A DNA stretch of 36,204 bases, from the NCBI GenBank assembly GCA_016286245.1, contig JAEESG010000006.1, positions 1-36,204 of the forward strand, read 5' to 3'. The DNA comes from Clostridiales bacterium (GTDB taxonomy: Bacteria > Bacillota > Clostridia > Oscillospirales > CAG-382). The translations under genes and the position numbers were made by a program. Shown piece after piece: positions 25,438 through 36,204 of this stretch; the stretch's first letter is position 1; every line of letters begins with the position of its first letter. The notes below the pieces were generated by a model. That model saw only the letters and a list, made by a program, of their open reading frames with translations. It was not told the DNA's origin and did not search any database.

Positions 25438-26022
25438 TCAGGAATACGCTCGTAAAATCTCTTGTGCTACCTCCGTTTTTGAAACGCAGCGGTCCATCGC
25501 CTGCTTTTCTATGTAGCGGTGAGCCTGCGGCTCGTCCATTTTGAGTTCCGAAATGAGGAGCCATTTTGCGCGGTTGACTATGCTTATTTCCTTCATTTTT
25601 TCCTCCACGGTGAGCGTCTTTTTCTCGAGTTTTCTCAGCCGTTCCTTTGCGCTTGACATCCAGTCGAGAGCGAGCGACAAAAGAGGGGATGACGTCGGTT
25701 TTGAAAGCGTGAACACGCCGTGAGGAGACACTTTTTCACGTATATCGTTATGAAATTCCGCGCGCACGAGCAGCAAAACCACCGTGCTTTTGGAGTTTAC
25801 CGCGTCTATTGCGAATCTCGTTCCCACGTCGTCGGGCAGCGGCGAGTTTATAATCACGAAATCGTAGCTCCGTTCGCTCCACGCCTGCTTCCCGGCGTTT
25901 ACTCCCGACACGAATTTTACGGGCTGAAAGTGCGATTCGGGCATAAGGGAGGAAAGAGCGGTATTCAGTTTTTCCGCCGCGGACACGACGAGAACGCTAT
26001 AAATTCGCTCTTCCAGACTCAT
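25438..26022 (-). CDS. ANTAR-domain RNA-binding antiterminator with degenerate receiver domain
   Basis: C-terminal EKMKEISIVNRAKWLLISELKMDEPQAHRYIEKQAMDRCVSKTEVAQEILRAYS matches ANTAR. N-terminal receiver-like YDFVIINSPLPDDVGTRFA...TLSKPTS. Confidence 0.88.
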   Translation of the reverse strand: MSLEERIYSVLVVSAAEKLNTALSSLMPESHFQPVKFVSGVNAGKQAWSERSYDFVIINSPLPDDVGTRFAIDAVNSKSTVVLLLVRAEFHNDIREKVSPHGVFTLSKPTSSPLLSLALDWMSSAKERLRKLEKKTLTVEEKMKEISIVNRAKWLLISELKMDEPQAHRYIEKQAMDRCVSKTEVAQEILRAYS

Positions 26023-26054: not shown

Positions 26055-27266
26055 TTATGCTCCACAGTAAATTTTCAAGATTTCAGAAGGTATATGCGTT
26101 TTGATAAAATCGCTTGAGGACGCAATTTCACAGGCTTCCCTGAAGTTTTCGGGAAGCTTTTCGAATTTTGAGAGAATATCCGCGCCCGCGCTGTAAAGAT
26201 TTACGTCGGCAGGCTCGCACAAGGCAAGTTTATTCGTAATTCCGTAAAGGCCCGCGTAAATCATGAGTGTAAACGCAAGATACGGATTTGACGTCGGGTC
26301 GGGAGACCTGAATTCCGCGCGTCTGTATTCGTTTGCCGCCGCGGGAATGCGTACAAGCTGCGAGCGGTTTTGCGCCGACCAGGAAACGTAAAGCGGAGCT
26401 TTGTTGTTTCCGAGCCGTTTGTATGAATTTTCGCAGGGATTCATAAACGCCGTCATATTTCTTGCATTTTGGAGAATGCCGGCTATCATGTGATTAAAAT
26501 TCTTTCCGTCTCCGAAAGGGAGAATCGACATATTTATATGAAAGCCGTTTCCGGGGGCGTTTTCGAGCGGTTTCGGAGAAAAATCCGCCGTCATGCCGTT
26601 TCTGTGCGCAACCGTTCTGACAACGCGCTGAAAAGTCATTGCGTTGTCGGCGGCACTCAGCGCGTCGGCGTACCTGAAATCGATTTCATTCTGAACGGGG
26701 CCTGCTTCGTGATGCGAGCTTTCGGGGCGTATGCCCATCTGCTCGAGCGTAAGGCAGATTTCACGCCTTACGTTTTCTCCGCGGTCATCGGGCGCTATAT
26801 CCATATATCCCGCCTCGTCGCAGGGGATTTTCGTCGGTTTTCCGTTTTCGTCGAGCAAAAAGAGGTAAAATTCCTGTTCTGAACCGAACGTAAACGTAAT
26901 TCCCGCGTCCTTTGCGTCTTTTACCGCCTTTTTGAGCAGGTTTCGCGTATCGCATACAAACGGAGTTCCGTCGGGATGCGAGATGCTTGAAAACATCTGT
27001 ACTACGCGGCCGTGCTCGGGGCGCCACGGAAGCGGCATAAGCGTATCGGGCTCGGGGTGCAGGAAAAGGTCGCTGTGGGTTTCGTCTCCGAAACCCGGTA
27101 TTGAGGACGCGTCGAACGCGATGCCGTGCTCAAAGGCACGGGGCAGTTCCTCCGGCATTATGGAAATATTCTTTTGTTTTCCGAAAACGTCGCAAAATGC
27201 CAGACGGATGAACTTTACGTCCTCTTCCGTCGCATATTGAATAATATCGTCCTTTGAATACTTCAT
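26055..27266 (-). CDS. glnA: glutamine synthetase, type I family
   Basis: IRLAFCDVFGKQKNISIMPEELPRAFEHGIAFDASSIPGF...GSEQEFYLFLLDENGKP...HHEAGPVQNEIDFRYADAL...NGFHINMS...RRAEFRSPDPTSNPYLAFTLMIYAGLYGI. Confidence 0.95.
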   Translation of the reverse strand: MKYSKDDIIQYATEEDVKFIRLAFCDVFGKQKNISIMPEELPRAFEHGIAFDASSIPGFGDETHSDLFLHPEPDTLMPLPWRPEHGRVVQMFSSISHPDGTPFVCDTRNLLKKAVKDAKDAGITFTFGSEQEFYLFLLDENGKPTKIPCDEAGYMDIAPDDRGENVRREICLTLEQMGIRPESSHHEAGPVQNEIDFRYADALSAADNAMTFQRVVRTVAHRNGMTADFSPKPLENAPGNGFHINMSILPFGDGKNFNHMIAGILQNARNMTAFMNPCENSYKRLGNNKAPLYVSWSAQNRSQLVRIPAAANEYRRAEFRSPDPTSNPYLAFTLMIYAGLYGITNKLALCEPADVNLYSAGADILSKFEKLPENFREACEIASSSDFIKTHIPSEILKIYCGA

Positions 27267-27282: not shown

Positions 27283-28002
27283 TCAATTTGCCACGTACAT
27301 CTGTCTGTAAGGGTTTTTGCTGTCGGGCGTTACGACCGTAAACGGCGACGAAAGAAGCTCGCCTTTGTCAAGCCCGAAAATACGGCAGTATTCCGAAAGA
27401 TAGGAAGAAAGCTCCTTCATATCCTCTTTTGAAGCGGTTTTCGCCGTTACCTGCTTTGGGAAAGCGATATTTTCGCACGTCGAGCGAAGAAACATTTTTC
27501 CACCGTGCATTCCCGTGCAGGGGAAAAATCCGACGCATTTTTCTTTGGGAGTATGCAGATTGAGCACGATTATTATGCCGCCCGCCTGGTATTCGCCGAG
27601 AAAGCTGCCGGCTTTGCCTCCGATAATCATTACGGGAACTTTTTCCTTGTACGCTTTCATATGAATGCCCGCGCGGTAGCCCGCGTTGCCTCCTACGTAT
27701 ATTTTTCCGCCCCGCATTGCGTATCCTGCGGCGTCGCCTATGTTTCCGCGCACGACTATCGTGCCCTCGTTCATGGTGTCGCCCACCGCGTCCTGCGCAT
27801 TTCCGAGAACGGTCAGTTTTCCGCCGTTTAAGTATGCGCCGAGCGCGTTTCCGGGCGTACCTCCGAGCGTTACGTTCTTTTGCGACATGCCGGCGGCGAT
27901 AAACCGCTGTCCGCAGCAGTTTTCGACGGTGCAGTTTGCGCCCGCGTTCCTCAGCGCGTCGTTCAAAGTTTTGTGATCAAGCCCTTTTGCATTTATCAAC
28001 AT
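27283..28002 (-). CDS. glutamate synthase alpha-subunit domain 3 (GXGXG) stand-alone protein
   Basis: GGTPGNALGAYLNGGKLTVLGNAQDAVGDTMNEGTIVVRGNIGDAAGYAMRGGKIYVGGNAGYRAGIHMKAY. Confidence 0.92.
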   Translation of the reverse strand: MLINAKGLDHKTLNDALRNAGANCTVENCCGQRFIAAGMSQKNVTLGGTPGNALGAYLNGGKLTVLGNAQDAVGDTMNEGTIVVRGNIGDAAGYAMRGGKIYVGGNAGYRAGIHMKAYKEKVPVMIIGGKAGSFLGEYQAGGIIIVLNLHTPKEKCVGFFPCTGMHGGKMFLRSTCENIAFPKQVTAKTASKEDMKELSSYLSEYCRIFGLDKGELLSSPFTVVTPDSKNPYRQMYVAN

Positions 28003-28007
28003 ATCTA

Positions 28008-29240
28008 TTATACCACACTTCCGAATTTTTTTCTACGTATTTTTTCCGAAAAAGCGGCGGTTGTCGCCGTTTTTTTCAAAATGTCGAAATTAAGCGACGA
28101 CAAAGGCGTCTTTTCGCGTATCAAGGACGTGTAAATTCCCGCGCGTTCGCCGCATCCGACAAGAATAAAGCCCTTTAAGTGATTGTCCTTGGTAAACAGC
28201 TTTTTTATCGAGTTTTCGGTTCTTTCCTCGTAAATTTCTCCCTCGTAAGCGCCTGCCGACATAATATGAAGTCCGAAAAATCCTATGGAATTCATCGGGA
28301 TTCCCTTGTCGAACAAGGCTTTTCCGCCCGCCATGTTGACTCCCGCCGTAAAGCCCTGCATATAGGCGTTCGGCAGAATCGCAAGCACGCGGTTTTGGTT
28401 TGTCGAAAGGTCAAAGCCCTGCGCGCAGTCCCCGGCGGCGAAAATGTTTGCTTTTGAGGTCTTCATTGCAGTATCCACGATAATTCCGCGGTCAATTTTT
28501 CCGCCCGCGTCCTTTAAAAGAGCGACGTTTGCGCGCACGCCGACGGCAAGAACGAGAACGTCGAACTCCACGACGGCTCCGCTTTTCATGAAAGCCTTGT
28601 TTTTTTCAAATCGGGCGGCGCTGTCGCCGAGATAAAACTTTATTCCGTTATTTTCGAGGTGTTTTTGCACCATGCCCGCGCAGTCCGCGTCGAGAATGCT
28701 CGAAAGAACGCGGTCGGCAAGGTCGCACACCGTAACGCTTGCAACGCGGTCCCTTATTCCCTCGGCGCATTTTAAGCCTATCAGTCCTGCGCCGACGATG
28801 AGCACCCTGCTTTTTTTGTTTAGCGCCTTTTCAAGGGCAAGCGCGTCGTCGAGCGTCATAAACGAAAACTTGTTTTTGACCGAATCTATGCCCTCGAACG
28901 GCGGCACGAAGGGAGAGGAGCCTGTCGCAAGGCAAAGCGCCGAGTACGCAAGCGCGCTTCCGTCGTCAAGCGTGATTTCTTTTGATTTTTCAAGGATTTT
29001 TACCGCTTTTTGTCCGTAAATTACGCGGCAGCCCGCTTTTTCGTAGAAATCTCCGTCTCTGTACGACATGCGGGACAGATCCGTTTTTCCTTCGAGATAA
29101 TAGGATATAAGCGGTCTGCAGTAAACTTCGTGTTTTTCCTCGGAAACGACGGTAATTTTTCCTTTTTTGTCAACGCTTCTTATGCCTTCGATACAGCCTG
29201 CGGCGGCAACGCCGTTTCCGACGATTACGTATTGTTTCAT
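28008..29240 (-). CDS. NAD(P)/FAD-dependent oxidoreductase
   Basis: YVIVGNGVAAAGCIEGIRSVDKKGKITVVSEE...LCLATGSSPFVPPFEG...VLIVGAGLIGLKCAEGI...ANIFAAGDCAQGFD. Confidence 0.92.
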   Translation of the reverse strand: MKQYVIVGNGVAAAGCIEGIRSVDKKGKITVVSEEKHEVYCRPLISYYLEGKTDLSRMSYRDGDFYEKAGCRVIYGQKAVKILEKSKEITLDDGSALAYSALCLATGSSPFVPPFEGIDSVKNKFSFMTLDDALALEKALNKKSRVLIVGAGLIGLKCAEGIRDRVASVTVCDLADRVLSSILDADCAGMVQKHLENNGIKFYLGDSAARFEKNKAFMKSGAVVEFDVLVLAVGVRANVALLKDAGGKIDRGIIVDTAMKTSKANIFAAGDCAQGFDLSTNQNRVLAILPNAYMQGFTAGVNMAGGKALFDKGIPMNSIGFFGLHIMSAGAYEGEIYEERTENSIKKLFTKDNHLKGFILVGCGERAGIYTSLIREKTPLSSLNFDILKKTATTAAFSEKIRRKKFGSVV

Positions 29241-29680: not shown

Positions 29681-31186
29681 TTATTCTCCCGCATGAGATA
29701 TACCGAGTATCTCAAGTTCTTTGTCGGTAAGACCTACTCCGCGAAGCATGAGTCTGTTTCCGCGAAGAGCCTCTATGGAATTTATGCCCATACCGCCCAT
29801 AAGCTCCATGATTTCATGCTTCCAGGCGGTCATAAGGTTTACGAGCCGCTCGCTTCCTATGTCGGGGTTGAGCCTCTTTACAAGGTCGGGGCGCTGGGTT
29901 GCGATACCCCAGTTGCACCTGCCCGTCTGACAGGTGCGGCAGAGATGACATCCGAGCGCAAGCAGCGCGGCGGTTGCGATATAACACGCGTCGGCGCCGA
30001 GCGCGACCGCTTTTACCACGTCGGAAGCGCTCCTTACGGAGCCGCCCGCGATAAGGGAAACGTTGTTTCTTATTCCCTCGTCGCGAAGCCGTTTGTCAAC
30101 CGAGGCAAGCGCAAGTTCAATCGGAATACCCACGTTGTCCCTTATACGCGTGGGCGCGGCGCCCGTTCCGCCGCGGAAACCGTCTATTGCGATTATGTCG
30201 GCGCCGCTGCGGGCAATTCCGCTTGCGATCGCCGCGATATTATGGACGGCGGCAACTTTTACGATTACTGGTTTTTTGTATTCCGTCGCTTCTTTGAGCG
30301 AATATACGAGCTGCCTTAAATCCTCAATGGAGTAGATGTCGTGATGGGGCGCGGGAGAAATGGCGTCCGAGCCTTCGGGAATCATGCGCGTGCGCGAAAC
30401 GTCGCCCACAATTTTTGCGCCCGGCAGGTGTCCGCCTATACCGGGCTTTGCGCCCTGTCCCATTTTTATCTCAATGGCGGCGCCCGCTTCAAGGTAGTCC
30501 TCGTGCACGCCGAATCGACCGCTTGCCACCTGAACGACAGTATTCGCGCCGTAACGGTAGAAATCCTCGTGAAGTCCGCCCTCTCCGGTGTTGTATAAAA
30601 TACCGAGCTTTTCCGCCGCCCTTGCAAGGGATGCGTGCGCGTTGTAGCTTATCGAGCCGTAGCTCATTGCAGAGAACATAACCGGCATTGAGAGGTTGAT
30701 TTGCGGCGGAAGCTCGCAGATAATCCTTCCGTTTTTGTCTTTTTTTATTTTTTCGGGCTTTTTGCCGAGAGAAACGCGCGTTTCCATAGGCTCGCGAAGC
30801 GGGTCTATCGGGGGATTCGTAACCTGGGACGCGTTTATTAAAATTTTGTCCCAGTAAACGGGAAGCGGTTTGGGGTTTCCCATGGAGGAGAGCAGAACGC
30901 CGCCGCTCGACGCCTGCTTGTATATCTCTTTTATCGTGTCGTTCTGCCAGTTTGCGTTTTCACGCAGAGTACAGTCGCTTTTTACGATTTTGAGCGCCCT
31001 CGTCGGGCAGAGGGATACGCATCTCTGGCAGTTGACGCATTTTGTCTCGTCGCTCATCATCATACCGCGCGCTTCGCTGTATGAGTGAACCTCGTTTGCG
31101 CACTGTCTTTCGCATACGCGGCAGGCAATGCAGCGCGACTCGTTTCTGATTACTTCAAATTCGGGAAAAATGAAATCCACGCTCAT
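29681..31186 (-). CDS. glutamate synthase domain 2 (FMN-binding) with N-terminal 4Fe-4S domain
   Basis: CIACRVCERQCANEVH...CVNCQRCVSLCPTRAL; then MSYGSISYNAHASLARAAEKLGILYNTGEGG...IKMGQGAKPGIGGHLPGAKI...IDGFRGGTGAAPTRIRDNVGIPIELAL. Confidence 0.95.
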   Translation of the reverse strand: MSVDFIFPEFEVIRNESRCIACRVCERQCANEVHSYSEARGMMMSDETKCVNCQRCVSLCPTRALKIVKSDCTLRENANWQNDTIKEIYKQASSGGVLLSSMGNPKPLPVYWDKILINASQVTNPPIDPLREPMETRVSLGKKPEKIKKDKNGRIICELPPQINLSMPVMFSAMSYGSISYNAHASLARAAEKLGILYNTGEGGLHEDFYRYGANTVVQVASGRFGVHEDYLEAGAAIEIKMGQGAKPGIGGHLPGAKIVGDVSRTRMIPEGSDAISPAPHHDIYSIEDLRQLVYSLKEATEYKKPVIVKVAAVHNIAAIASGIARSGADIIAIDGFRGGTGAAPTRIRDNVGIPIELALASVDKRLRDEGIRNNVSLIAGGSVRSASDVVKAVALGADACYIATAALLALGCHLCRTCQTGRCNWGIATQRPDLVKRLNPDIGSERLVNLMTAWKHEIMELMGGMGINSIEALRGNRLMLRGVGLTDKELEILGISHAGE

Positions 31187-32280
31187 TAATAAGCACCTTC
31201 CTTCACTTTAACGATAACGGGCTCTCCGCCCGCGGGCGCGTACACGTTTTCGGCGTCCGGCTCCATCGTTCTTATGGAAGCCTCCTCGCTTGCGATGAAT
31301 ACGCGGTCTTTTTTCTCGCCGACCACCATGGAGCGAAGCTTGAGTCTGTCGTTGAGAGCCATAATTCCGCCCGTAAAGCCGAGAATAATCGAAAACGGGC
31401 CCGTTATGAGAAGACTGGGAAACACGGTGCGCAGATACGCGAGTTTTTCCCTTTTGTATTTGTCGCGTTCCTTTTCGATAGTGCTCCAGAACGGAGACGC
31501 GATGACGTTTGCGGCTTCGGTGAGCGTCAGTCCCTGAACGCGCGTAAGATAGTCCATTATATAGGTTATGACCTCGGTGTCGGTCTTTAGCGTGCATTTG
31601 TATCCGAACATTTCTATAAATCTGCGGTTTGCGTCATATGAGGATATTTCCCCGTTATGTACTACCGAATAATCGAGGAGAGTGAACGGGTGCGCGCCGC
31701 CCCACCAGCCGGGGGTGTTTGTCGGATAACGGCCGTGCGCCGTCCAGGAATAGCCCTCATACTCTTCAAGTCTGTAAAACACGCCCACGTCCTCGGGAAA
31801 GCCGACGGCCTTGAAGGTACCCATGTTTTTTCCGCTTGAAAAGACGTACGCGCCCTTCATTTCCGTGTTGATTTTCATTACCGCGCGCGCGACGAACTCC
31901 TTTTCGTCGAGCTGCAGATTTTTGAGCATGGATTGAAGCGGAGATACGAAATAGCGCCAGATAATCGGCTCGTCGGTAATCTGCGGAATCTTTCTCGTCG
32001 GGATTATTTCAGATTTTACTATCTCGAAATGCTCTTTTATGAACGCTTCGCAGTCCTTTCTCGTCGCCCTGCTGTCAAAAAAGAGGTGCAGCGCGTAAAA
32101 ATCCTTATATTCGGGATAAATGCCGTAACCCGCAAATCCGCCGCCTAAGCCGTTCGAACGGTCGTGCATCGGTTTCATCGCGTCGATTACGAGCTTTCCC
32201 GACATTTTGTTTCCTTCCTTGGATATTACGGAGGCTATTGCACATCCTGAAGGGATATGAACTTGATTTTCTTTCATCAT
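31186..32280 (-). CDS. class II glutamine amidotransferase (glutamate synthase domain 1)
   Basis: SGCAIASVISKEGNKMSGKLVIDAMKPMHDRSNGLGGGFAGYG...GRYPTNTPGWWGGAHPFTLLDYSVVHNGEISSYDANRRFIEMFGYKCTLKTDTEVITYI. Likely start ATG at 32277/32280, not the listed 32391. Confidence 0.92.
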   Translation of the reverse strand: MMKENQVHIPSGCAIASVISKEGNKMSGKLVIDAMKPMHDRSNGLGGGFAGYGIYPEYKDFYALHLFFDSRATRKDCEAFIKEHFEIVKSEIIPTRKIPQITDEPIIWRYFVSPLQSMLKNLQLDEKEFVARAVMKINTEMKGAYVFSSGKNMGTFKAVGFPEDVGVFYRLEEYEGYSWTAHGRYPTNTPGWWGGAHPFTLLDYSVVHNGEISSYDANRRFIEMFGYKCTLKTDTEVITYIMDYLTRVQGLTLTEAANVIASPFWSTIEKERDKYKREKLAYLRTVFPSLLITGPFSIILGFTGGIMALNDRLKLRSMVVGEKKDRVFIASEEASIRTMEPDAENVYAPAGGEPVIVKVKEGAY

Positions 32281-32300: not shown

Positions 32301-32361
32301 AAAATAAAAAAAGAAAGGCGTTTATTACCGCGCAGAAATCTGTACGGTAATGAACGCCTTT
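32301..32361 (-). terminator. leader terminator of the GOGAT operon, overlapping the ANTAR hairpin
   Basis: Minus strand: AAAGGCGTTcATTACCG...CGGTAATaAACGCCTTT followed by CTTTTTTTATTTT. The 5' arm reuses the loop and 3' arm of the AAAGGC hairpin. Confidence 0.85.
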
Positions 32362-32370
32362 GCTCATTAC
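32347..32370 (-). promoter_or_regulatory. ANTAR-target-like hairpin, GOGAT operon leader
   Basis: Minus strand: GTAATGAGC[AAAGGC]GTTCATTAC, 9 bp stem with one G.U pair and a hexaloop with A1 and G4. Confidence 0.75.
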
Positions 32371-32376
32371 GGCACT

Positions 32377-32405
32377 ATTATAAACCGACAAACGTGATTT
32401 GTCAA
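32377..32405 (-). promoter_or_regulatory. sigma-A-type promoter of the GOGAT/glnA/ANTAR operon
   Basis: Minus strand: TTGACA - 17 nt - TATAAT. Confidence 0.88.
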
Positions 32406-32469: not shown

Positions 32470-32498
32470 TTGACATCGGCAGAAAAGAGTAGTATAAT
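32470..32498 (+). promoter_or_regulatory. sigma-A-type promoter of glnN
   Basis: TTGACA - 17 nt - TATAAT. Confidence 0.88.
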
Positions 32499-32507
32499 TT
32501 ACGGCGT

Positions 32508-32525
32508 AAAGGCAAAGGCGTCTTT
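32508..32525 (+). promoter_or_regulatory. ANTAR-target-like hairpin 1, glnN leader
   Basis: AAAGGC[AAAGGC]GTCTTT, 6 bp stem with one G.U pair, hexaloop A1/G4. Confidence 0.7.
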
Positions 32526-32555
32526 GAGTGGCAGGCTCGAAGGCGCTCTTTTTTT
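32517..32555 (+). terminator. leader terminator 1 of glnN, overlapping ANTAR hairpin 1
   Basis: GGCGTCTTTGAG[tggcagg]CTCGAAGGCGCT, 12 pairs including G.U, followed by CTTTTTTT. Confidence 0.85.
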
Positions 32556-32638
32556 GGCAGGTTGACGAAAGATTTCACGGCGGTCGGCATGAAAAAATTC
32601 GTTTTCAAAGAAAGAGCAATTTGAATCGAATAAGGATG

Positions 32639-32658
32639 AAAAGGCAAAGGCGTCTTTT
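32639..32658 (+). promoter_or_regulatory. ANTAR-target-like hairpin 2, glnN leader
   Basis: AAAAGGC[AAAGGC]GTCTTTT, 7 bp stem, same hexaloop. Confidence 0.7.
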
Positions 32659-32701
32659 GTGTTCTCACGAAAGGAGTCTTTGCCTTTACTGTTTTATTTT
32701 T
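32640..32701 (+). terminator. long terminator-like hairpin 2 of the glnN leader, overlapping ANTAR hairpin 2
   Basis: AAAGGCAAAGGCGTCTTTTGTG[ttct]CACGAAAGGAGTCTTTGCCTTT: 22 positions with one G/A mismatch. Followed after 4 nt by TTTTATTTTT. Confidence 0.65.
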
Positions 32702-32724
32702 ATAATGAAAAGGAGTTATGAATT

Positions 32725-34821
32725 ATGAGTACGGTATCTGATTATTTTGGAAGCAGCGTTTTTGACGACCGCGTTATGAGGGCGAGCCTCTCGTCCGACG
32801 TGTACGCGTCATTGAGAAAGACCATCGACGAGGGAAGCGAGCTTGACATAAGCGTCGCAAACGCCGTTGCGGACGCCATGAAAAACTGGGCGGTTGAAAA
32901 GGGAGCAACGCATTTTACTCACTGGTTCCAGCCGCTTACGGGCATTACCGCCGAAAAACACGACAGTTTTATCTCACCGTCGCCCGACGGCAGCGTGATT
33001 ATGGAATTTTCAGGCAAGGAACTGATAAAGGGCGAGCCTGACGCGTCGTCGTTCCCGTCGGGAGGCCTTCGCGCCACGTTTGAAGCGAGAGGCTACACCG
33101 CATGGGACCCGACGTCTTACGCGTTTATCAAAGGAAAGACGCTCTGCATTCCGACCGCGTTCTGCTCTTACGGCGGACACGCACTTGACAAGAAAACCCC
33201 GCTTCTTCGCTCGATGGAAGCGTTAAACAGGCAGGCGCTGCGTATTTTGAAGCTGTTCGGAAACACCACGACCAAACGCGTCGTTTCGTCCGTCGGTCCC
33301 GAGCAGGAATATTTCCTTGTTACAAAGGAAATGTACGACAAACGCCCCGACCTGCGTTTTACCGGACGCACGCTGTTCGGCGCAAAGCCGCCCAAAGGAC
33401 AGGAGCTTGACGACCACTATTTCGGCGTTATCAAGCCCGGCGTTGCGGCGTTCATGGAGGACTTAAACGACGAGCTCTGGAAGCTCGGAATTCTCGCAAA
33501 GACCGAACACAACGAAGTGGCTCCCGCTCAGCACGAGCTTGCGCCCATATATTCAACAACGAACATCGCAACCGACCACAACCAGCTGACGATGGAAATC
33601 ATGCAGAAGGTTGCGGCAAAGCACGGACTTGTATGCCTGCTTCACGAAAAACCCTTTGCGGGCGTGAACGGCTCAGGCAAGCACAACAACTGGTCGATTG
33701 CGACGGACAAAGGACAAAACCTCCTTTCGCCCGGCGAAACGCCGTATGAAAACGCGCAGTTCCTTTTGTTCCTTTGCGCCGTAATAAAGGCGGTTGACGA
33801 CTATCAGGACCTTCTTCGTATTTCGGTTGCGACCGCAGGCAATGACCACAGACTCGGAGCAAACGAAGCGCCTCCCGCGGTTATTTCGATTTTCCTCGGC
33901 GACGAGCTTAACGCCGTCCTTAAAGCAATCGAAACGGATACGCCTTATCAGGGAACCAAAAAAACGCAGATGAAGCTCGGCGTAGACGTACTGCCGAAAT
34001 TCAACCGCGATACGACGGACAGAAACAGAACGTCTCCGTTCGCGTTCACCGGCAACAAGTTCGAGTTCCGTATGCTCGGCTCGTCAAACTCCATAGCATG
34101 CGCAAACATCATGCTCAACAGCGCTGTTGCCGAGAGTCTGCGTATATATGCCGACAGACTTGAAAAAGCAAAGGATTTCGAAAAGGCGCTTCACGATATG
34201 ATAAAAAAGACGATAAAAGACCATAAGCGTATAATCTTCAACGGCAACGGATACGACGAGGCGTGGATAAAGGAAGCAACGCAGAAACGCGGACTGTTAA
34301 ACTATCGTACCACTGCCGACTGCATGCCGCACCTGCTTGACAGTAAAAACGTGAAGATGCTCACGTCTCTCGGAGTATTCACGCAAGACGAACTGCACTC
34401 GAGACGCGACATTATGCTCGAAAATTACTGCAAGAGCGTGGTAATCGAGGCAAACACGATGGTTGACATGGCAAGAACGCAGATAGTACCCGCAATAGAA
34501 CGCTACGCAGCAGACGTGGCAAAAGCGGCTTCCGCAAAGAGAGCGGTATCTCCGTATCTCAAGTGCGCGTATGAGACAGGGCTTGTCGAAAAGCTTTCGG
34601 GGCTGATTGACGAAATAGCGCAGAAGACGGATAAGCTTGAAAAGGCTTTGCTTGAAATTCAGAGCGCAAAAGATATTGTGGAAGAATCGGCACTGATAAG
34701 AGACACGATTCTGCCCGCCATGAGCGAAACGCGCGTACCGTGCGACGAAGCGGAAACGCTCACGGCAAAGAGCTATTGGCCGTTCCCGACCTACGCGGAT
34801 CTGCTGTTCGGCGTAAAATAA
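32725..34821 (+). CDS. glnN: glutamine synthetase type III
   Basis: 698 aa; [32 protein letters not shown]...[24 protein letters not shown]...[10 protein letters not shown]...[42 protein letters not shown]...[18 protein letters not shown] signatures. Confidence 0.97.
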
Positions 34822-35016: not shown

Positions 35017-36204
35017 ATGTGTTGTGTTATGGGTTATTGCGGAAGCGGTGCCGACATTGAACTGTTCAAAAAAGGTTTTTCGCGCACGGTGTCGAGAGGT
35101 CCCGACGACAGCAGAATAGTCGATACGGGAAACGGACTTCTCGGCTTTCACAGGCTTTCCATTATGGGACTTACACCGTCGGGAATGCAGCCGTTCGAGC
35201 TTGACGGAAGTTTTGCCGTATGCAACGGCGAACTTTACGGCTTTGAAAAGGAGCGCGAAAAACTGCGCAAAAAGGGCTATACCTTCAAAAGCGGCAGCGA
35301 CTGCGAAATAATTCTGCCGATGTATTTTGAATACGGAACGGATATGTTTTCCATGCTCGACGCCGAATTTGCATGCATAATTTACGACGGAAGAACGAAA
35401 GAATATATCGCCGCGCGTGACCCGATAGGCATCCGACCGCTTTACTTCGGATACGACGAAAAAGGGGTAATTTTGTTTGCGAGCGAAGCGAAAAACCTTG
35501 TCGGGCTTGTAAAAAAGATAATGCCTTTTCCGCCCGGACACTATTATAAAGACGGAAAATTCGTGTGCTACACGGATATTGCAGACGCGAAGAACGTTTG
35601 CTTTGACGATCTTGAGACGGCGTGCGCGAAAATACGCGAAAAATTGATTGCGGGAGTAAAAAAACGCCTCATATCCGACGCAAAAGTGGGATTTCTGCTT
35701 TCGGGAGGCCTCGATTCCTCGCTTGTGTGCGCCATTGCGGCAAGAGAGAGCGAAAAACCGATAGAAACCTTTGCGATAGGCATGAGCGGGGACGCCATCG
35801 ACTTAAAATACGCGAAAACCGTCGCCGATTTCATAGGAAGCCGTCATACCGAGGTGTATATGACGCCGGACGACGTGATTTCGTCGCTTGAGGACGTAAT
35901 TCATCTTCTCGGAACGTACGACATCACGACAATCCGCGCAAGTATGGGTATGTACCTTGTCTGCAAGGCGATACACGAGCGCACGGACATACGCGTAATT
36001 CTGACGGGCGAGATTTCAGACGAGCTTTTCGGATACAAATATACCGATTTTGCTCCTTCTGCAAAAGCATTTCAGGAGGAAGCGGAAAAGAGGATACGCG
36101 AACTGCACATGTACGACGTTCTGCGTGCGGACCGCTGTATTTCGGTAAACTCGCTTGAAGCGAGAGTGCCTTTCGGCGACATTGATTTTGTAAAATACGT
36201 AATG
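35017..36204 (+). CDS. asnB: asparagine synthase (glutamine-hydrolysing), partial, runs off window end
   Basis: MCCVMGYCGSG (catalytic Cys2); SRGPDDSRIVDTGNGLLGFHRLSIMGLTPSGMQPFE; CNGELYGFEKER; GFLLSGGLDSSLVCAIAARE; LTGEISDELFGYKYTDFAPS. Absent from the ORF track because no stop occurs in the window. Confidence 0.93.
   Translation, partial: MCCVMGYCGSGADIELFKKGFSRTVSRGPDDSRIVDTGNGLLGFHRLSIMGLTPSGMQPFELDGSFAVCNGELYGFEKEREKLRKKGYTFKSGSDCEIILPMYFEYGTDMFSMLDAEFACIIYDGRTKEYIAARDPIGIRPLYFGYDEKGVILFASEAKNLVGLVKKIMPFPPGHYYKDGKFVCYTDIADAKNVCFDDLETACAKIREKLIAGVKKRLISDAKVGFLLSGGLDSSLVCAIAARESEKPIETFAIGMSGDAIDLKYAKTVADFIGSRHTEVYMTPDDVISSLEDVIHLLGTYDITTIRASMGMYLVCKAIHERTDIRVILTGEISDELFGYKYTDFAPSAKAFQEEAEKRIRELHMYDVLRADRCISVNSLEARVPFGDIDFVKYVM

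Follow-up and report, generated by a model that had tools for sequence, protein, structure and literature searches.

A single 5′-terminal hexaloop as a probable antitermination target of a NitR-like ANTAR protein ahead of clostridial nitrogen genes

What reads a loop of six nucleotides, AAAGGC, that occurs three times within 310 bp in the leaders of two divergent nitrogen operons? The question is raised by a stretch of 36,204 nt from a gut-type Clostridiales bacterium (hereafter, the window), in which glnN, encoding a type III glutamine synthetase (GSIII), diverges from a GOGAT operon. Six-nucleotide loops in which position 1 is A and position 4 is G are what ANTAR proteins recognise; their hairpins are mutually exclusive with terminators, and they mostly precede nitrogen genes (PMC3369931, PMC8934654). 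The targets described have two such hexaloops, joined by a linker of 2-25 nt (PMC8164766). For EutV, a single hexaloop is insufficient for antitermination, which needs both, and lengthening the linker by 20 nt abolishes its action; the 2022 paper on the structure of EutV with RNA nonetheless defined the minimal ANTAR site anew, as a single hexaloop, proposed a model for why antitermination still requires two, and left natural single-hexaloop targets open (PMC8934654). From the comparisons described here, we consider it quite probable that the AAAGGC modules are attenuators read by a NitR-like ANTAR protein, for which one 5′-terminal hexaloop would be enough, and that two such gates would act serially in glnN.

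The leader of glnN (32725..34821, plus strand; Pfam GSIII_N, 269 bits) is about 220 nt long: transcription is predicted to start near 32505, and the ATG lies at 32725. A sigma-70 promoter (32470..32498, plus strand; TTGACA-17-TATAAT) with 12/12 consensus matches, the position of which is kept in relatives, precedes the leader, which contains a ribosome-binding site, AAGGAG, recognised by sequence at 32710..32715 (plus strand). A preliminary description of this DNA had pointed to a direct repeat, AAAGGCAAAGGCGTCTTT, which is indeed present at 32508-32525 and at 32640-32657. Folded alone, each copy gives a 7-pair hairpin with the loop AAAGGC (-5.3 and -5.6 kcal/mol). These two predicted ANTAR antiterminators, hairpin 1 (32507..32526, plus strand; 29.5 bits in our motif model) and hairpin 2 (32639..32658, plus strand), are each delimited by fold, motif model and conservation, and hairpin 1 begins about 2 nt from the predicted start.

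When downstream sequence is included in the fold, both copies are replaced. Copy 1 gives way to a hairpin at 32514-32551 with a run of seven T's behind it (-21.4 kcal/mol, z -3.3), which constitutes a predicted intrinsic terminator (32514..32555, plus strand) overlapping the loop and the 3′ arm of hairpin 1; the exclusivity and the seven T's are as first described, while the terminator stem, given earlier as 12 pairs from 32517, has in the minimum-energy fold 16 pairs with one bulge and begins at 32514. Copy 2 is exchanged in the same manner for a longer hairpin at 32640-32687 (21 pairs, -29.7 kcal/mol, z -6.7), in agreement with the exclusivity proposed for it. Together with a U-rich tail, this long hairpin is a probable second terminator (32640..32702, plus strand), which ends before the ribosome-binding site. 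Downstream of glnN lies asnB (glutamine-dependent asparagine synthase; 35017-36204, plus strand), which continues past the edge of the window. A second GSIII gene exists elsewhere in the genome (G000:C84:9863-10342); its N-terminal part is 76% identical, and its leader gave no strong motif match.

The third use of the loop, which had been located in the divergent GOGAT leader, was recovered there as a hairpin (32347..32370, minus strand; 26.4 bits) behind a sigma-70 promoter that also has 12/12 consensus matches (32377..32405, minus strand). Its AAAGGC sits on a 9-pair stem differing from those of glnN, and the hairpin overlaps a terminator assigned by sequence (32303..32361, minus strand). 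The operon, all on the minus strand, encodes the glutamine amidotransferase part of GOGAT (31186..32277; Pfam GATase_2), its synthase domain (29681..31183; Pfam Glu_synthase, 465 bits), a pyridine nucleotide-disulphide oxidoreductase (28008..29237; Pfam PF07992), a GOGAT GXGXG domain protein (27283..27999; Pfam PF01493), a GS-I-like protein with an altered catalytic flap, which is a candidate sensor partner (26055..27263), and, as its last gene, a NitR-like ANTAR regulator with a pseudo-receiver, the predicted reader of the hexaloops (25438..26019).

The three hexaloops of the window are the best three matches that the motif model gives across the 1.59-Mb genome (29.5, 29.1 and 26.4 bits; the next scores 21.0), a ranking that is partly built in, since the model was trained on 62 sequences including the window's own copies. 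An unconstrained promoter test is free of that circularity: the strongest hairpin after every good promoter was taken, without preselecting the loop, and hexaloops were found in 33 of 79 hairpins, with A1 and G4 in 31 of those 33 against 6% in shuffles. The 20-nt model alone is too short for weak matches to be counted, and matches were used only when accompanied by a promoter and/or an overlapping terminator. The pattern TATAAT-N-CAANGGCGY was rejected as a genome-wide counter of modules, as it is too loose and its controls are as frequent as its matches in many genomes.

The arrangement is also kept beyond this genome, the comparison of leaders finding mutually exclusive hairpin/terminator modules in dozens of relatives. 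The promoter-proximal modules number 56, in 42 clostridial loci; one or two modules stand in the leaders of the GSIII paralogue nearest the window's copy, and a single module is usual in the divergent GOGAT leader. The genes that follow modules in relatives, GSIII, GOGAT, asnA, asnB and purF, are nitrogen genes, asnA and purF having been named from sequence and not by family search. Single-hexaloop modules before purF (L143), asnB (L146), asnA (L159, L162, L022) and a gltB-type gene (L168) outline a wider glutamine/asparagine regulon. Three ANTAR-less relatives (L024, L025, L030) carry at the GSIII transcription start another attenuator-like hairpin, GTAGTGGGCACTGTGAAA...TTTCGCAGTGGC followed by a T-rich run, without the hexaloop.

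Across 62 distinct modules, both sides vary in four of the six stem pairs, and the covariation score of the stem reaches 0.64, where shuffles give 0.27 and slid controls no more than 0.19; the modules were selected for at least 4 pairs, so that the percentage paired is partly built in, a reservation that does not touch the change of pair types. The closing C-G pair is invariant; adjacent to it, 39 modules have G-U. In turn, the terminator arm tracks the loop: a module forms 9.1 Watson-Crick pairs with its own downstream sequence and 4.9 with that of modules having another loop, and loop position 3 pairs with the terminator arm as A-T, T-A, G-C and C-G. Since the stem covaries and the loop is matched by the terminator's 3′ arm, both alternative folds are maintained.

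The preliminary description had proposed that one exclusive hexaloop/terminator arrangement is used three times, which conservation in relatives supports, and it had left the reader of the loop unnamed; the evidence points to the ANTAR protein. The product of 25438..26019, the only one of its kind in the genome, has an ANTAR domain (PF03861) scoring 57 bits against a cut-off of 27.3, with the C-terminal three-helix domain present. Its AlphaFold model (pLDDT 92) is matched by Foldseek to Rv1626, EutV and AmiR, RNA-bound EutV having the highest TM-score (0.76) among the best full-length solved matches. The equivalents of the EutV RNA contacts Lys149, Glu160 and Met172 are kept and are invariant in 32 relatives; several others differ, a point against the ANTAR reading, with His at Tyr164, as in AmiR, Ile at Arg142 and Glu at Arg168.

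Furthermore, the modules follow the gene. The ANTAR protein, whose relatives were collected with phmmer, occurs in 30 of 60 related genomes, and among the 30 genomes that were read out the best motif match is a full module (a match with promoter and/or overlapping terminator) in 16/20 ANTAR-positive and 0/10 ANTAR-negative ones (p 3e-5). At least two of the four ANTAR-positive genomes without a full best match hold modules elsewhere (G030 = L012 and G001 = L031). As for exceptions in the other direction, one genome (G031) has modules and just a fragment of ANTAR at a contig edge, and another (G052) has a module before asnA-glnN and no ANTAR found in a search of the genome. In L098, L110 and L112, GSIII has immediately upstream, on the other strand, a gene for a divergent ANTAR type, and the GS-like gene is missing. 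These comparisons suggest that the hexaloops are read by the ANTAR-family nitrogen regulator encoded nearby.

A metabolite riboswitch, or some other ligand-binding RNA, would equally account for the leader position, the alternative folds and the nitrogen genes; we hold it to be highly improbable, because the conserved part amounts to six loop nucleotides carried by a stem that varies in sequence, which is too small for known metabolite aptamers, because the presence of the modules follows the ANTAR gene, and because no bacterial family among the Rfam covariance models gave a match at E up to 5. If the reader is an ANTAR protein, the number of hexaloops that it reads at a time becomes the point at issue. 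Of the features that define a dual-hexaloop ANTAR RNA, the A1 and G4 hexaloop (AAAGGC, three times) and the hairpin exclusive with a terminator are both present; a second hairpin on a 2-25 nt linker was found neither at the 56 promoter-proximal modules nor at 28 later ones. The requirement of EutV for two hexaloops in vivo gives some weight to a hidden partner, for instance a non-canonical first hairpin with another loop, through which each module would be read, and the window does allow a bulged hairpin with an AAAGAG loop to be drawn ahead of module 2. No such hairpin shows up in relatives such as L003, however, and the 56 promoter-proximal modules begin 6-14 nt past the -10 box; from a start predicted from the promoter and taken as 7 nt after this box, they are separated by 0-8 nt. 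There is thus no room for a partner hairpin P1, as the smallest hairpin needs 12 nt. In the 28 later modules, an A1/G4 (P1-like) hexaloop within 25 nt upstream was found in none, against an expectation of 0.9 from shuffles, which were the only controls. A hidden partner therefore seems distinctly unlikely. Still less credit can be given to the possibility that the two glnN modules make up one dual target, P1 and P2 on a long linker, leaving the two-hexaloop rule intact. The glnN RNA does have two hexaloops, as do 15 of 47 GSIII leaders, but their spacing is 112 nt (46-161 nt in relatives), far from the known linkers (PMC8164766) and from the tolerance of EutV to added nucleotides (PMC8934654); moreover, each glnN module has its own terminator, and single modules are found in the GOGAT leaders and in 32 GSIII leaders. 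We conclude that the element is a single-hexaloop variant, which lacks the paired hexaloops defining the family and yet, judging by its sequence, would work as that family does. The kind of mechanism is known, and the RNA architecture is new: the openly accessible literature gives ANTAR targets as dual, except that additional single loops and exceptions are touched on in passing (PMC8934654).

The serial double gate suggested for the glnN leader is borne out as an architecture, two modules being present on the GSIII side in the 15 of 47 module-bearing leaders mentioned above; with two successive gates, less leakage would be expected, and a steeper response is conceivable. How module 2 acts is a separate matter. 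Its T tract is weak and delayed in the window (ACTGTTTTATTTTTATAATG), as had been remarked, and its hairpin ends near the ribosome-binding site, while ANTAR targets overlapping such sites have been reported (PMC3369931, PMC8934654), so that module 2 might control translation or mRNA stability and not transcription termination. This option, also raised in the preliminary description, appears unlikely: the long hairpin stops 22 nt before AAGGAG and excludes it, and homologous second modules in relatives (L005, L006, L010) have better T tracts. For these two reasons, termination is favoured over translational control, and is the more likely action of module 2 as far as sequence can indicate.

The anatomy, the conservation, the covariation of both folds, the coupling with the ANTAR gene and the absence of a second hexaloop have sequence and comparison as their basis; binding, antitermination, the direction of the nitrogen response and the GS-like sensor are what we infer. 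By default, the nascent RNA would form the terminator. Under nitrogen shortage, the ANTAR protein would hold the small hexaloop hairpin, with its loop AANGNC on the invariant C-G pair, thereby blocking the terminator and allowing RNA polymerase to read through into glnN or GOGAT. One hexaloop at the extreme 5′ end of the RNA would suffice, unlike in the targets of EutV, NasR and AmiR, and in glnN two such gates would follow one another. The signal would probably reach the ANTAR protein via a protein partner, for which the best candidate is the GS-like protein, its gene immediately preceding that of the ANTAR protein.

Several known systems share parts of this arrangement. In the eutP leader of Enterococcus faecalis, EutV, a REC-ANTAR protein, likewise meets an A1/G4 hexaloop on a short stem that is exclusive with a terminator (PMC3369931, PMC8934654); it differs in that its targets need two hexaloops on a fixed short linker, where here there is one at the 5′ end, and in that EutV is phosphorylated by EutW, whereas the receiver of the window lacks the Asp. 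In Desulfotomaculum, ANTAR regulons spread at least 13 targets over six transcription units, so that a unit has more than one, and resemble our case by having several targets per genome ahead of nitrogen genes, although these are described as dual-hairpin motifs (PMC3369931). AmiR of Pseudomonas aeruginosa (1qo0) is, similarly, a pseudo-receiver ANTAR protein under a protein partner, with His at the Tyr164 position, but this partner, AmiC, is an amide-binding protein and not GS-like. A parallel in genes is offered by Clostridium saccharobutylicum. There, NitR is an ANTAR antiterminator of GS/GOGAT genes upon nitrogen limitation (cited in PMC6316151). Its gene adjoins GS and GOGAT genes, the order of the nit cluster being glnA-nitR-gltA-gltB. 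The window differs from that cluster by its divergent GSIII and by a GS-I-like protein with an altered flap, and the comparison of the two covers their genes.

What signal would the regulator receive? The phosphorylatable Asp of an EutV-type receiver, which AmiR does without, is absent from the ANTAR protein, which has Asn58 where Rv1626 has Asp; because of this replacement, phosphorylation of the EutW kind is unlikely. Position 58 is Asn or another residue in most relatives, and Asp in a few (L038, L058, L095). Since the receiver is without a phosphorylated Asp, the signal probably comes from a protein partner. The GS-I-like gene stands directly before 48 of the 55 ANTAR genes examined, and its product is present in 27/30 ANTAR-positive and 1/30 ANTAR-negative genomes (p 2e-12). 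In the window, this protein is only 402 aa long, shows Asp at the position of Arg62 in Bacillus GS, and carries the flap GNNKAP for PGYEAP, a change of Glu to Lys at the catalytic residue, Glu327 in enteric GS. In most relatives, the flap is shortened to GxxKAP, Lys or Arg replacing Glu. The sequence suggests that the protein may be a pseudo-enzyme acting as a sensor, and genuine glutamine synthesis can come from GSIII. A P-II signal protein was ruled out as a general signal carrier, as it gave no match over the cut-off in 13 of the 30 ANTAR-positive genomes; its absence from the window's genome and from 12 other relatives is an unusual feature for ammonium control. In Bacillus, feedback-inhibited GS controls TnrA, as cited in PMC6316151. 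By analogy with GS-TnrA and AmiC-AmiR, we tentatively propose that the GS-like protein would sense glutamine and control the ANTAR protein.

Altogether, a widespread clostridial circuit of nitrogen control can be envisaged, plausible although short of probable in its entirety, in which an altered GS-like glutamine sensor would switch a pseudo-receiver ANTAR protein on and off single 5′-terminal hexaloops, in tandem before glnN, and the two-hairpin rule would not be general. Its single-hexaloop part is represented by 56 promoter-proximal modules with terminators and covariation, linked to one protein family. Some of these modules belong to cultured species (Defluviitalea phaphyphila, Ruminococcus sp. 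YE71), which makes the question of the single hexaloop directly testable, and the linked GS-like protein is a testable candidate for the sensor. Searches based on two hairpins will have missed this single-hexaloop set, which is predicted to control ammonium assimilation in many gut and rumen Clostridia.
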